DNA of 64,000 nt from Flavobacteriia bacterium (GTDB lineage: Bacteria > Bacteroidota > Bacteroidia > Flavobacteriales > Schleiferiaceae). Each line of letters begins with the position of its first letter. Position 1 is the first letter of the stretch. Below, piece after piece: positions 7,855-12,657 of the stretch. The position numbers and the translations under genes are program-made. The DNA is taken from NCBI GenBank assembly GCA_013373425.1, contig JABXHW010000003.1:1-64000 (forward strand), in the 5' to 3' direction. Under the pieces are notes generated by a model. That model did no database searches. It was given only the letters and a program-made list of their open reading frames with translations, and was not told the origin of the DNA.

Positions 7855-7869
7855 TTCTACCTTCGCGCT

Positions 7870-8030
7870 GTTCGCGGTGTCCCGATGTAATGTTGGGATG
7901 AAAAGGGAACTTGGTGTGAATCCAAGACTGTACCCGCAGCTGTGAGTCCTTAAGTGACTTTGGCACCCTCGCCACTGGAGTATTCCGGGAAGGCGCCAAA
8001 GTTGGACGAGTCAGAAGACCTGCCGAGAAC
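7870..8030 (+). ncRNA. Cobalamin (B12) riboswitch
   Basis: AdoCbl-type aptamer. Conserved blocks appear in order: GATGAAAAGGGAACTTGGTG, the hairpin GTGAATCCAA, CCCGCAGCTGTGAG, CCACTG, GGGAAGGC and the B12 box AGTCAGAAGACCTGCC (8009-8024). The outer P1 stem can form between GTTC (7870) and GAAC (ending 8030). The B12-box hexamer CCTGCC (8019-8024) is exactly complementary to GGCAGG (8061-8066), just before the btuB start codon, so ligand state may decide whether the ribosome site is free. Known riboswitches of this class shut off uptake genes when cobalamin is plentiful; the switching helix here is my inference. Confidence 0.96.
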
Positions 8031-8070
8031 CATAAGACACAATACTCTTCGGGAAGAAAGGGCAGGTGAT

Positions 8071-9951
8071 ATGACAAGCAAGAAATCGATACATACGGTT
8101 TTGGCTCTGTGGGCGTGCGCGCTTTCACAGAATGCAGTGGCACAGATTGTACCTATTAGGGTCGTTCATGTGACAGCCAATCGTCTCGACCATATCCTTC
8201 CTACCAATGACGCCAGAATAGACACGCTTTCCCGCAGATTCCATTCTGACGTCAACCTTTCTGAGCAGATTCAATCCGAGTCCTCCATCTATATCCGCAG
8301 CTATGGTCCTGGTTTGGCAAGTACGGTAAGTCGACATGGTTATAGCCCTTCTCAAACTTCGATCTATTGGAACGGAGTACCATTGAATTCACCGGCTTTA
8401 GGTCTTTCCGATTTAGCCACTCTGCCCACAGGATTCGATGTTACTTTGGATGAAGGAGCGGCAGGTGCATTGTACGGCTCCGGATACATGGGCGGGGGAA
8501 TACACCTTCAGTCAGAACCCAATTATTCTCAAAAGTGGTCCATTCAACAATCTGCTCAATACAGAACTGCGGGTTACGCTTCCTATTCAACACATGGAAG
8601 CTATTCGACGAATTCAACAGCCCACGTTGCGGCCATCGATTACGGCAGAGGGCAGATGGACTTCAGGTATACCGACTTGTATGGTGTGCGAAGAGATCGA
8701 TTAGGCGCTGATCAAGAAAGCATACACCTGAGGTATAACGGTAAGAAGAACTGGCTGCACAGTCGTTTGGATTGGGGAATGTGGGGGTCGGAGCTCAATC
8801 GTGGGATTCCTAGAAGTATTAGTGAATCCTATACGGAGGGTGCTCGACAGTTCGATCAAGTCGCTAGAGCTTATTTAAAATTTAATTGGTCTAATGGGCC
8901 TGTTTCAATAGGGCTACGAACTAGTGGATACGCAGAAGATCAGCGCTATCATTCTACCGTGCTAAGCGACACAAACATCGCTTCGACGATATATAATCAG
9001 GTCGATCTCGCTTGGCGTGTGAGCAATCGATTCAAACTCGTTTATTCTTTAGATCACGCATATCAATACGTCGAGGGCAGTTCAAAGGACTCAAGAAGTG
9101 TGAACAGATATGGGACTTCAGTACTAATGAGTTATCAGTACGATGAGTATTGGAGTGGAGCAATGGGCGGCCGCCTGGAGCACCAGCTTATTACCACACC
9201 CCTTATTCCGTTTGCTCATGTGCGGTGGAAGAAGGACGTTTATGATGCGCAGCTCTCATTCCGTTCGCATTTCCGTTTCCCTACACTTAATGACTTGTAT
9301 TGGAATCCTGGAGGAAATCCCGATTTGAAACCTGAACTCGGTAATACGATTGATTTTCACTCGGGCTACAACTTTGGACTGGATCAACAGAATAGAGTAG
9401 AGTTCTCTTCCTTCTATTCTATCATCGATCAATACATCCAATGGGTGCCTGATGGAGCGATATTCCAACCGCGAAATGTAAAGGCGGTCAGAACCAGCGG
9501 AATGACCATCGACTATGAATATGTATCGAAAGTTGATTTCGATTTTATTCTCGGAGGCAACTATACATGGACTTATGCACGTACCATTGAGAGTCAGCGT
9601 CTTAATGATCCAAGTTTGAATAATCAACTGATATACACTCCAGCACATAAACTCTCAGGACGTATCAGCGTAGCTTGGTATGATGCCTGGGAGGTTAAAT
9701 TAGTCGGCACATTCAATGGAAGAGTGCACACCACTTCGGATAATCAAGATGCACTAGCTATTCCAAGTTTCTTCATTTTAGATTCTGAGGTGAGCTATGA
9801 ACGTAAATTCGCTGGCGACGGCAAAATACGAGGCTCAATTGGTATAAGGAATATGACCAATACCGAGTACTCATTTCAACGATTTTACCCAATGCCTGGA
9901 TTACAGGCCGTTTTTTCATTTACCATTCAATTCGCACAACATGAAACTTAA
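8071..9951 (+). CDS. btuB: BtuB-like TonB-dependent cobalamin receptor
   Basis: Outer-membrane TonB-dependent transporter predicted to import cobalamin. The 626 aa product has a signal peptide ending near NAVAQ (about residue 25), a plug domain (about 40-150, with DVNLSEQIQSES, QTSIYWNGVPLNSP and GSGYMGGGIHL) and a beta-barrel ending in aromatic-rich strands (GLQAVFSFTIQF). The substrate call rests on the B12 riboswitch directly upstream and the BtuG-like gene that overlaps its 3' end by 11 bases. ATG 8071 was chosen because the ORF upstream of it runs through the riboswitch. The sequence alone would say only TonB-dependent receptor. Confidence 0.92.
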   Translation: MTSKKSIHTVLALWACALSQNAVAQIVPIRVVHVTANRLDHILPTNDARIDTLSRRFHSDVNLSEQIQSESSIYIRSYGPGLASTVSRHGYSPSQTSIYWNGVPLNSPALGLSDLATLPTGFDVTLDEGAAGALYGSGYMGGGIHLQSEPNYSQKWSIQQSAQYRTAGYASYSTHGSYSTNSTAHVAAIDYGRGQMDFRYTDLYGVRRDRLGADQESIHLRYNGKKNWLHSRLDWGMWGSELNRGIPRSISESYTEGARQFDQVARAYLKFNWSNGPVSIGLRTSGYAEDQRYHSTVLSDTNIASTIYNQVDLAWRVSNRFKLVYSLDHAYQYVEGSSKDSRSVNRYGTSVLMSYQYDEYWSGAMGGRLEHQLITTPLIPFAHVRWKKDVYDAQLSFRSHFRFPTLNDLYWNPGGNPDLKPELGNTIDFHSGYNFGLDQQNRVEFSSFYSIIDQYIQWVPDGAIFQPRNVKAVRTSGMTIDYEYVSKVDFDFILGGNYTWTYARTIESQRLNDPSLNNQLIYTPAHKLSGRISVAWYDAWEVKLVGTFNGRVHTTSDNQDALAIPSFFILDSEVSYERKFAGDGKIRGSIGIRNMTNTEYSFQRFYPMPGLQAVFSFTIQFAQHET

Positions 9952-10996
9952 CCACAGCGCTATCTTAGGAGTAATTCTACTTTCAGCTTGTACAGTAGAT
10001 GACCCTGCAGAACCTGTAGGCGTGGACTTCTCTGGAGGGGTTTACATCACCAACGAAGGTCCATTCCAAGGGGGGAATGGAACATTGACGTACTATGACC
10101 CAAGCACCAATGCTACCATTCAAGATGTATTCAATACCAATGTTAGTCGACCATTGGGCAATATCGTACACAGTGCACACATCTTCGAAAACGATCTATT
10201 TGTAGCCGTAAATAACAGCGGTGTAGTAGAGAAGGTGCATTCTGACGATATGACTTCGCCAGTGACGTATACAGGTTTCCAGCAACCACGTTATGTCCAT
10301 GGTGTAGAATCTAATGTAATTGCCGTAACCGACTGGGGAACGAACACGGTTACCTTTCTGGACGTGACCACTACAGGGACACTAGGCACTGTGAACGTGG
10401 GCAATGGTCCTGAGCGAATGCTCCAAGAAGGCGCACGACTTTACGTAGCTAATAGCGGTGGATTTGGATTAGATTCGACGGTGATGATGATAGATGTAGA
10501 TACGAGAACCATCATTGACACCTTCTATGTGGGCTTCAATCCCAACTCAATGGTCATGGATATCAATGGCGACCTCTGGGTGCTTTGTGGAGGCTACACG
10601 GATTGGCAGAATTCTGCGAACAATAGAATTGGATCCCTTTACAAGATTGACCCGATTACAGGTTCTGTTCTCGATTACTTCGAATTTGATGCAGCTCCTC
10701 GTCCAACAGCACTGTGCATTAGCTCTTCAGATCAAACGCTGTATTATCTGGATAATGCCTACGGCGGACAGGTTTATGCAATGGATATTTACGAGACAAC
10801 TCTTCCGCTGAGTCCATTGTTGATGGGCGTTAACGGATATTCAATCGCAGTTGATCGCAATGCGAATGAGCTTTATGTTACAGATCCAGTAGATTATTCT
10901 AGCCAGGGTAGAGTATTCCGCTACGACCTTATCAACCAACAAATGGTAGATACCATTGCTGCAGGAATTATCCCAGGCAACGTAATCTTTAACTAA
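9941..10996 (+). CDS. BtuG-like surface beta-propeller lipoprotein (YncE/DUF5074 type)
   Basis: Surface lipoprotein of the seven-bladed YncE/DUF5074 type (351 aa), with lipobox LLSAC (Cys17) and blade repeats such as VYITNEGPFQGGNGTLTYYD, VAVTDWGTNTVTFLDV, LYVANSGGFGLDSTVMMIDV and LYVTDPVDY. In Bacteroides, BtuG proteins are beta-propeller lipoproteins encoded with btuB; they bind cobalamin extremely tightly and cap the receptor. Here the gene overlaps btuB by 11 bases and shares its riboswitch, so I infer the same role. Its 3' end overlaps the convergent FAD oxidase by 8 bases. Whether the cobalamin-contacting residues are conserved needs alignment to BtuG2. Confidence 0.85.
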   Translation: MKLNHSAILGVILLSACTVDDPAEPVGVDFSGGVYITNEGPFQGGNGTLTYYDPSTNATIQDVFNTNVSRPLGNIVHSAHIFENDLFVAVNNSGVVEKVHSDDMTSPVTYTGFQQPRYVHGVESNVIAVTDWGTNTVTFLDVTTTGTLGTVNVGNGPERMLQEGARLYVANSGGFGLDSTVMMIDVDTRTIIDTFYVGFNPNSMVMDINGDLWVLCGGYTDWQNSANNRIGSLYKIDPITGSVLDYFEFDAAPRPTALCISSSDQTLYYLDNAYGGQVYAMDIYETTLPLSPLLMGVNGYSIAVDRNANELYVTDPVDYSSQGRVFRYDLINQQMVDTIAAGIIPGNVIFN

Positions 10997-12113
10997 AGAG
11001 ATTTACGGCTTGTTTTGAAACTTCGGGAGCGATAGCAACGCCCATTCCTCCCAAGCGAGCGGCAAGAACGAGATTATCTGAAAGCGCCTCAACTCGGGGC
11101 GCTTTTTCATTTTTAGCACCGAATGCCATAATACCTGACCATCGCATATCAACCTTATAATTCGCCTTTGGTAATAGCGTTTTCAGCAGTTGCTCCAATT
11201 CTGTTTGAATCTTTTCCGAAGTCACACGTTCGCTCGAGCGTTCGCCTAATACATCTAAGTGTCTTCCGCCACCTAACAACAAGCGGTTCTCTACATTTCG
11301 GAAATAGAAATACCCTCTATCAATGTGAAAAGTGCCCTTCCATTTCAATTCTGGAATAGGGGAGGTCATGAGAATTTGACCTCGGGCGGGTTCAATATTT
11401 TCATCTGGGAAAAGAGACTTGGTCAGACCGTTAGTGGCCACGATACACTGTGCTGCTTTCCATGCAAAGCCACTCTTATCGAGTAGTATAACCTCATCTG
11501 AGGTATTTTCAATTGTCTCAATTTCGATTCCATTGACAATCTCCACTCCGAGTTGGCGAATGGCTTTATCGATGAGTCTGCAAAGCTTGCCGGGGTGCAA
11601 CTGTCCTTCGTGAGGATTGTGGAAACCCTCGGGGTAAATCTCTGCCCCAAAACGGTTGATATCTTTATCCACATCGTACACCCTTTCATTGAGAATAGGT
11701 GTCAATAATTGGTTCAAATAGTCAAGTCTATCTTTCGCATTTTCAACGATGTGTGATTCGCTTAATCGAAAGATTTCCCAGCCACCTCTTTTGTTGAAAT
11801 CGTAATCGTCCGGATTGAAAGTGGATCTGTAGAACTCGAGTCCTTTGACGCGCATTTCAACGCGCTTTAGCGTATCATTTTCTCCAAGTTCACGAAGGTC
11901 ATCGAGAAGTTCTGTGGGTGAACCAAAGCAAGCAAATCCAGCATTTCGAGTTGAAGCGCCGAAAGGGAAAGGGCCTCTTTCTAGAATGCGAACTTTTCGT
12001 GTGGGAAAGCGCTGTGCATAGTGATACGCACAAAGAAGTCCGGTTAAACCGGAACCAATAATCAATAAATCAGATGGAGCGGAGTAGGTGGAGGTTTCCC
12101 AATAACTCTGCAT
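10989..12113 (-). CDS. FAD-dependent amino-acid oxidase/dehydrogenase (DAO family)
   Basis: FAD enzyme of the glycine/D-amino-acid oxidase (DadA-like) superfamily, 374 aa, cytoplasmic. The N-terminal dinucleotide motif is LLIIGSGLTGLLCAYHYA, followed by RKVRILERG with the ribose-binding Glu, and the C-terminal FAD contact RLGGMGVAIAPEVSKQ. RYFYF-like strands and RWSGIMAFG match the DAO fold. The substrate (secondary amine, D-amino acid or glycine-like) is not determined. It lies 13 bases downstream of the DUF6580 gene on the same strand and may be cotranscribed. Its stop overlaps the convergent BtuG-like gene by 8 bases. Confidence 0.87.
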   Translation of the reverse strand: MQSYWETSTYSAPSDLLIIGSGLTGLLCAYHYAQRFPTRKVRILERGPFPFGASTRNAGFACFGSPTELLDDLRELGENDTLKRVEMRVKGLEFYRSTFNPDDYDFNKRGGWEIFRLSESHIVENAKDRLDYLNQLLTPILNERVYDVDKDINRFGAEIYPEGFHNPHEGQLHPGKLCRLIDKAIRQLGVEIVNGIEIETIENTSDEVILLDKSGFAWKAAQCIVATNGLTKSLFPDENIEPARGQILMTSPIPELKWKGTFHIDRGYFYFRNVENRLLLGGGRHLDVLGERSSERVTSEKIQTELEQLLKTLLPKANYKVDMRWSGIMAFGAKNEKAPRVEALSDNLVLAARLGGMGVAIAPEVSKQAVNLFS

Positions 12114-12126
12114 CCCGCAGTTCGAC

Positions 12127-12657
12127 TTAGGCCGCTTGTGTGCTTCTTACACGAGCCTCAATGGCATTCTTTACCATCACGAGCACGGTGCCGTAGGCAA
12201 GTGTACCGAGTAGGGTATTTCTCAAGAATGGAATACCTGCTGTGTACGACGCCATCAATCCTTCAAGAGTTTGAGGATACAAGGCTGTATTACCAAGCCA
12301 AGCCCCGAAATTGGTAGTAAGGAAGAAGAATAAGCTTGCACCTACGCCGAATCCAGCGAGTTTCAAACCGTTCTTTGGCGTTGCTTTACCTTTAAGAGCA
12401 ATGCTGCCAACAAGCGCGATGACTGCATAGGTAGCATAAACGAAAATCATGTTAGGGTAAAGTCCCAAGAACAAATCTGTAGCAAACACAGCTGTCAATG
12501 GAACAAGTATAGCAAGCTCACGGCGCTTAATCCATGCACCTCCTAGAAGTGAAATAGCGAGAACTGCAGTGAAGTTACCCAAGTGAGGAACCAAGCGAGT
12601 GAACGCTGATGCGGTAATCAATACAATAACAAGTAGGAGTGAGTTACGCTTGCTCAT
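12127..12657 (-). CDS. DUF6580 family membrane protein
   Basis: Integral inner-membrane protein of 176 aa with five to six hydrophobic helices separated by short loops (for example LLLVIVLITASAFTRLVPH, FTAVLAISLLGGAWI, IFVYATYAVIALVGSIAL). It matches my memory of the DUF6580 family, whose fold resembles the S component of ECF vitamin transporters; function is unproven. ATG 12657 was selected because a TACCTTTG -7 box occupies 12676-12683, where a longer reading frame would begin. Proximity to the B12 uptake operon is suggestive of a vitamin-related role, but the genes are on opposite strands and this is only inference. Confidence 0.75.
   Translation of the reverse strand: MSKRNSLLLVIVLITASAFTRLVPHLGNFTAVLAISLLGGAWIKRRELAILVPLTAVFATDLFLGLYPNMIFVYATYAVIALVGSIALKGKATPKNGLKLAGFGVGASLFFFLTTNFGAWLGNTALYPQTLEGLMASYTAGIPFLRNTLLGTLAYGTVLVMVKNAIEARVRSTQAA

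Follow-up and report, generated by a model that had tools for sequence, protein, structure and literature searches.

A probable corrinoid uptake locus of the BtuB-BtuG type with a kissing-loop riboswitch in the Schleiferiaceae, and DUF6580 as a candidate inner-membrane transporter

The stretch analysed here, referred to as the window, comprises 64,000 nucleotides of contig JABXHW010000003.1 (assembly GCA_013373425.1) of a Flavobacteriia bacterium belonging to the Schleiferiaceae, the latter being the family meant below. A cobalamin riboswitch, the gene of a TonB-dependent receptor (btuB, start codon ATG at 8071-8073) and the gene of a beta-propeller lipoprotein (btuG) follow one another on the forward strand (Table 1). 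This order, as well as the 11-base overlap of the two genes (btuB ends at 9951, btuG begins at 9941), had been described in a first-pass annotation of the window, whose region, starting at 7870, had the right content but cut the aptamer, which begins near 7858. The locus is most probably (probability of about 0.85) a corrinoid uptake locus, in which BtuB-BtuG are controlled by an L5-L13 kissing-loop riboswitch repressed by corrinoid.

The identity of the riboswitch, claimed earlier from the sequence, was borne out by the covariance model RF00174 (112.5 bits against a curated cut-off of 31.5, E 2e-27). This match is the only one in the window's own genome, and riboswitches of this family are present in 84 of the 88 family genomes. 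A second, weaker match (43 bits, L093) was seen in a congener, G031; it carries CGCG in both L5 and L13 and has no long ATG frame nearby.

For the comparison of leaders, 85 aptamers of the family were taken with their downstream sequence (83 were parsed and two were not). A short hairpin, P13, is located 3' of every aptamer, a few bases from the start codon in many genera and further upstream in others, and its loop starts with CGGG, CAGG, CTGG, CGCG or CGCA. L5 and the loop bases L13 covary naturally (CCCG/CGGG, CCTG/CAGG, CCAG/CTGG, CGCG/CGCG and TGCG/CGCA), and both strands of the P13 stem vary between genera. When P13 was picked automatically on stem strength, blind to L5, its loop was complementary to L5 in 77 of the 83 parsed leaders; counted as distinct combinations of genus, L5 and loop, 24 of 29 matched, against a mean of 10.0 and a maximum of 20 in 20,000 shuffles. 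The six mismatching leaders were read individually: for G037 and G060 the script had taken a wrong tetramer as L5, and in G024, G043, G039 and G084 another hairpin had outscored the one bearing L13. The window leader itself combines CCCG in L5 with CGGG in L13. Its P13 is weak on its own (-2.9 kcal/mol, z -0.5), which fits a hairpin expected to depend on the kissing loop, and it reached a pair probability of about 0.6, up to 0.65, when the aptamer pairs were forced. Such natural covariation documents the evolution of the kissing loop cleanly.

According to passages of PMC10653944, the L5-L13 kissing loop, with an L5 consensus of UCCCG, stabilises P13 and represses expression. Judged from its conservation in the leaders, L5-L13 together with P13 is the expression platform here, and its architecture predicts repression by B12. 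When corrinoid is plentiful, the aptamer would be bound and L5 would kiss L13, locking the otherwise weak P13 just upstream of btuB, so that initiation would be blocked sterically; when corrinoid is scarce, P13 would open and btuB-btuG would be translated. The riboswitches of Escherichia coli btuB and env8HyCbl, as the same passages describe them, share with the window the aptamer core, CCCG in L5, CGGG in L13 and a P13 beside the translation start. The window differs from them in that 8 bases lie between P13 and the start codon and little else of a platform is present, and its family in having five covarying loop types.

Ten leaders of the family with CCTG in L5 (L074, L052, L021, L045, L050, L051, L053, L064, L081 and L058) have a feature of their own. 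In seven of them the 5' strand of P13 together with L13 (CTTTCAGG) has a full 8-base downstream partner, followed directly by T6. P13 and this terminator-like hairpin would be mutually exclusive, which is the layout of an activating corrinoid riboswitch in the passages of PMC10653944. L058 precedes the genes of a TonB receptor and of a DUF5074 protein, where activation by B12 would be odd.

The receptor gene product contains a Pfam Plug domain (5e-08) and matched 8bmx_C, the receptor of the BtuBG complex of Bacteroides thetaiotaomicron, with an E-value of 5e-38 in phmmer, in agreement with its earlier naming as BtuB. The naming of BtuG is well founded too. Its product matched BtuG2 and BtuG3 chains (phmmer E about 1e-38), belongs to Pfam DUF5074, and its best PDB matches by sequence are all BtuG. 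The lipobox LSAC, with Cys17, is nearly invariant in the alignment of BtuG relatives. The AlphaFold2 model (predicted local distance difference test, pLDDT, 92.9) found BtuG entries or the related 3dsm in its first 16 PDB rows in Foldseek, with a template modelling (TM) score of about 0.8-0.85 and a root-mean-square deviation (rmsd) of about 2 A from the BtuG2/BtuG3 type. Thus the protein is by sequence and modelled fold a seven-bladed propeller related to BtuG2, with which it shares 94 identical residues in 308 aligned positions (about 30%), and its identity as BtuG may be taken as secure. It probably binds B12 and would act as a surface lid, which captures the corrinoid and passes it to BtuB.

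Several observations weigh against this interpretation of the locus. The btuB product scored 31.6 bits against TIGR01779, the equivalog of the E. coli type, and thus missed the curated cut-off of 599.7. That P13 blocks the start codon is deduced from its distance only. In the lipoprotein, named pocket residues are changed: Trp272 of BtuG2 is replaced by Arg and Tyr239 by Thr, while Trp194 corresponds to Phe. These replacements would suit a general protein of the DUF5074/YncE type with another ligand; such an assignment is highly improbable, the lipoprotein gene overlapping a riboswitch-controlled btuB, its best PDB matches being BtuG throughout, and Asn54, Glu55, Gly56, Tyr316 and Tyr335 of BtuG2 being retained. 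The first-pass annotation had proposed this comparison of contact residues and had named their complete loss as the refuting outcome; that outcome did not occur, and the picture is mixed, five being kept. The comparison is a partial one: it covered the residues named in the text of PMC10404256, passages of which also supplied their roles; those forming the 13 hydrogen bonds are named by that paper in its supplement.

The last of these observations concerns the leader. The unconstrained nested fold of the window's own leader formed, with a probability near 1, a helix between the B12-box hexamer CCTGCC and GGCAGG (8061-8066) just before btuB, and P13 had a probability of 0; nested folding of this kind can include neither the ligand nor the kissing loop. 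With the aptamer pairs forced, the helix fell to 0. The complementarity, which had been pointed out before, is real and extends with its flanks to seven contiguous Watson-Crick pairs (ACCTGCC with GGCAGGT); when the 32-base stretch following L13 was dinucleotide-shuffled 200 times, such a run was never reached. The same GGCAGGT occurs in G025, of another genus, and a run of six in the congener G031. It had been proposed on this ground that the two strands form the switching helix, a pairing that would belong to the ligand-free state. This is most unlikely: GGCAGG is retained in two of the 85 related leaders (the window's own and that of G025), whereas the L5-L13 pairing covaries; four of the 85 have a run of at least six between the B12 box and the 32-base stretch following L13, and the congener G030 has a run of only four. 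As a conserved switch, the helix is ruled out on these leaders; loss of the pairing in related btuB leaders was the outcome that the first-pass annotation itself had set as refuting. It can form only without ligand because it needs the 3' strand of P1, and its polarity is wrong for an uptake gene, since it would mask the initiation region when B12 is scarce. GGCAGGT is partly the 3' strand of P13, and AGGTGAT resembles a ribosome-binding sequence; both offer a simpler origin. The helix may tune the ligand-free state in the window species. The locus is a sound further case of BtuB-BtuG with an ordinary kissing-loop riboswitch.

Table 1. Features of the corrinoid uptake locus and adjacent genes (positions in the window)
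Feature	Position	Strand	Evidence or remark
Cobalamin riboswitch aptamer (RF00174)	7858-8041	+	cmscan 112.5 bits, full model 1-189
L5 kissing bases CCCG	7933-7936	+	position in the aptamer; consensus and L13 partner as in passages of PMC10653944
ACCTGCC, complementary to GGCAGGT	8018-8024	+	
B12-box hexamer CCTGCC, within the 3' strand of P1	8019-8024	+	
P13 hairpin CTCTT-CGGGAAGA-AAGGG	8045-8062	+	counterpart hairpin in related leaders, both stem strands changed, L5 matched
L13, P13 loop bases CGGG	8050-8053	+	
GGCAGGT, complementary to ACCTGCC	8061-8067	+	shares the last two bases of P13
btuB, TonB-dependent corrinoid receptor, 626 amino acids	8071-9951	+	Pfam Plug 5e-08; phmmer 5e-38 to 8bmx_C
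btuG, predicted corrinoid-binding beta-propeller surface lipoprotein, 351 amino acids	9941-10996	+	phmmer, Pfam DUF5074, AlphaFold2 model
Flavin adenine dinucleotide (FAD)-dependent oxidoreductase (DAO)	10989-12113	-	Pfam DAO 1.4e-44; converges with btuG and lies downstream of the gene for DUF6580
DUF6580 membrane protein, candidate for a solitary corrinoid transporter of the inner membrane	12127-12657	-	Pfam PF20221, fold, linkage

The genome of the window organism encodes three B12 enzymes: MetH, methylmalonyl-CoA mutase and IcmF. A profile search of this genome, positive in 13 of 14 controls, found no FecCD/BtuC permease. Strong FecCD matches (PF01032, over 280 bits) are present in seven of the 88 family genomes; weak ones, of 53 bits or less, were set aside and are presumably zinc/manganese ABC-3 permeases, as the paired frame lengths also suggest. 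EcfT/CbiQ (PF02361), found in the control rings in 10 of 14 cases, is present in none of the 88 genomes. In bacteria with BtuB that lack BtuCDF the inner-membrane carrier is, to our knowledge, often unknown. According to passages of PMC6072759, many bacteria that need B12 and possess BtuB are without BtuCDF.

Beyond btuG, on the opposite strand, are the genes of an FAD-dependent oxidoreductase and of a DUF6580 membrane protein (start codon ATG at 12655-12657). The AlphaFold model of the latter (pLDDT 93.1, 39 sequences) retrieved BtuM (8c7p) first in Foldseek, with E 0.019 and a TM score of 0.71, followed at E 0.24 by a substrate-binding (S) component. Alignment by VIA-align 2 gave Z 15.2 for 8ovv and 15.0 for 8c7p, both BtuM (rmsd 2.8 over 157-159 residues), and 14.3, 14.3 and 13.5 for BioY, FolT and ThiT. 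Hence the fold of an S-component of energy-coupling factor (ECF) transporters is, on the model, secure, and the closeness to BtuM in particular is only suggestive, because BioY and FolT lie within about 1 Z. A DUF6580 profile searched with hmmsearch against the PDB sequences had no match at E 10, BtuM included.

BtuM of Thiobacillus denitrificans is, according to passages of PMC6072759, a solitary transporter of B12 whose invariant cysteine binds the cobalt. DUF6580 has in common with it the six-helix S-component fold, BtuM being its best PDB match, as well as the lack of an EcfT found in the genome and the linkage to B12 uptake genes. It differs in that none of its cysteines is invariant among the 39 sequences and that the profile finds no BtuM sequence, and it has instead an invariant Arg-Pro-His-Asn-Thr motif; the invariant residues are Arg20, Pro23, His24, Asn27, Thr29, Asp60, Phe110, Asn115 and Gly132 (Ser2 of the protein being 1). 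Since the invariant cysteine is absent, DUF6580 is not a member of BtuM, although it may work like BtuM. With roughly even odds, it is a new family of solitary corrinoid transporters of S-component fold that replaces BtuCDF behind BtuB-BtuG in the family, and the invariant histidine would be a possible cobalt ligand in place of the cysteine of BtuM. No paper on DUF6580 was found in the literature searched.

DUF6580 is present in 78 of the 88 family genomes, including 54 of the 56 near-complete ones. In 59 of these 78, and in 12 of the 18 genera having DUF6580, it is located at most 4 kb from a gene of the BtuG family; among the remaining genomes, three have both on the same contig but far apart, and 16 have them on different contigs or lack a BtuG match. 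It adjoins cobT in nine of the 40 stretches searched, from seven genera, among them genus g15, where no btuG match was present in the stretch. The cobT of Owenweeksia was confirmed by Pfam (DBI_PRT, 8.9e-60). Family f14 repeats the order riboswitch, btuB, btuG, DAO, DUF6580, apart from a single additional gene that follows the riboswitch. In a hand-picked, non-random set, B12-binding domains were found in 13 of 14 genomes with DUF6580 vs three of eight without it. At the level of the order (246 genomes), DUF6580 occurs in 58 genomes, strong FecCD in 101 and both in seven (the last figure by an eye count); the two are thus nearly exclusive, but along the boundaries of families, so this is not independent evidence.

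In Owenweeksia and other genera (L172:7216-8241, L188:4884-5894), a divergent BtuG-like gene that does not belong to the btuB operon is found next to cobT, in convergent orientation to DUF6580. DUF4465 had been expected at the head of the riboswitch operon of Owenweeksia; Pfam did not confirm this.

A number of points tell against a transport function of DUF6580 for corrinoids. The linkage is partly shared synteny: family f5 has the same upstream genes (recognised by eye), followed immediately by DUF6580, and btuG is missing there. In the window's family, the neighbour most constantly seen beside DUF6580 is the FAD-dependent oxidoreductase. Family f7 has DUF6580 beside saccharopine-dehydrogenase-like genes (also recognised by eye), with no riboswitch match and no btuG. 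In families f8 and f11 most genomes combine the riboswitch with a lack of both DUF6580 and a strong FecCD, so that another transporter must exist somewhere; and the S-component fold serves many vitamins. It is therefore a tentative but serious possibility that DUF6580 carries another substrate, and that some other unrecognised protein is the inner-membrane corrinoid carrier. Against it stand the linkage to btuG and to cobT across genera, the B12-binding domains carried by nine of the ten f7 genomes with DUF6580, and the lack of EcfT throughout the family. It is the DUF6580 protein next to the locus that deserves an experiment, and as a specific candidate it would make the inner-membrane question directly testable in this lineage.

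Two observations stand apart from this question. The oxidoreductase, here and in relatives, may be an enzyme of corrinoid processing or have no connection with corrinoids. The riboswitches of families f8 and f11 point to a further unrecognised corrinoid transporter.

A BtuG relative is present in 75 of the 88 family genomes, and the riboswitch-BtuB-BtuG arrangement is family-wide. The family includes G026, taken as Owenweeksia hongkongensis, a free-living seawater isolate according to passages of PMC3570807, in line with the earlier suggestion that BtuG is also used outside the gut. Passages of PMC6143338 (Wexler et al.) report btuG in Bacteroidetes only and, in gut strains, its linkage with genes for B12 transport. 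With the BtuB2-BtuG2 and BtuB3-BtuG3 pairs of B. thetaiotaomicron, as described in passages of PMC10404256 and PMC6143338, the window shares the adjacent genes of receptor and lid, the corrinoid riboswitch and the propeller fold; it differs from them in the single riboswitch, the changed Trp272 and Tyr239 and the lack of a detected FecCD/BtuC permease. Judged on titles and the beginnings of abstracts, no work on BtuG in flavobacteria was found in the literature searched, and none of the matches listed described a native marine BtuG. The occurrence outside the gut extends printed knowledge and does not overturn it, because BtuG is, in passages of PMC10404256 (Abellon-Ruiz et al.), already encoded in almost all B12 transport loci of Bacteroidetes. 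BtuB-BtuG is a standard B12 importer in this family, one of whose members lives free in seawater, so its origin need not lie in gut competition.

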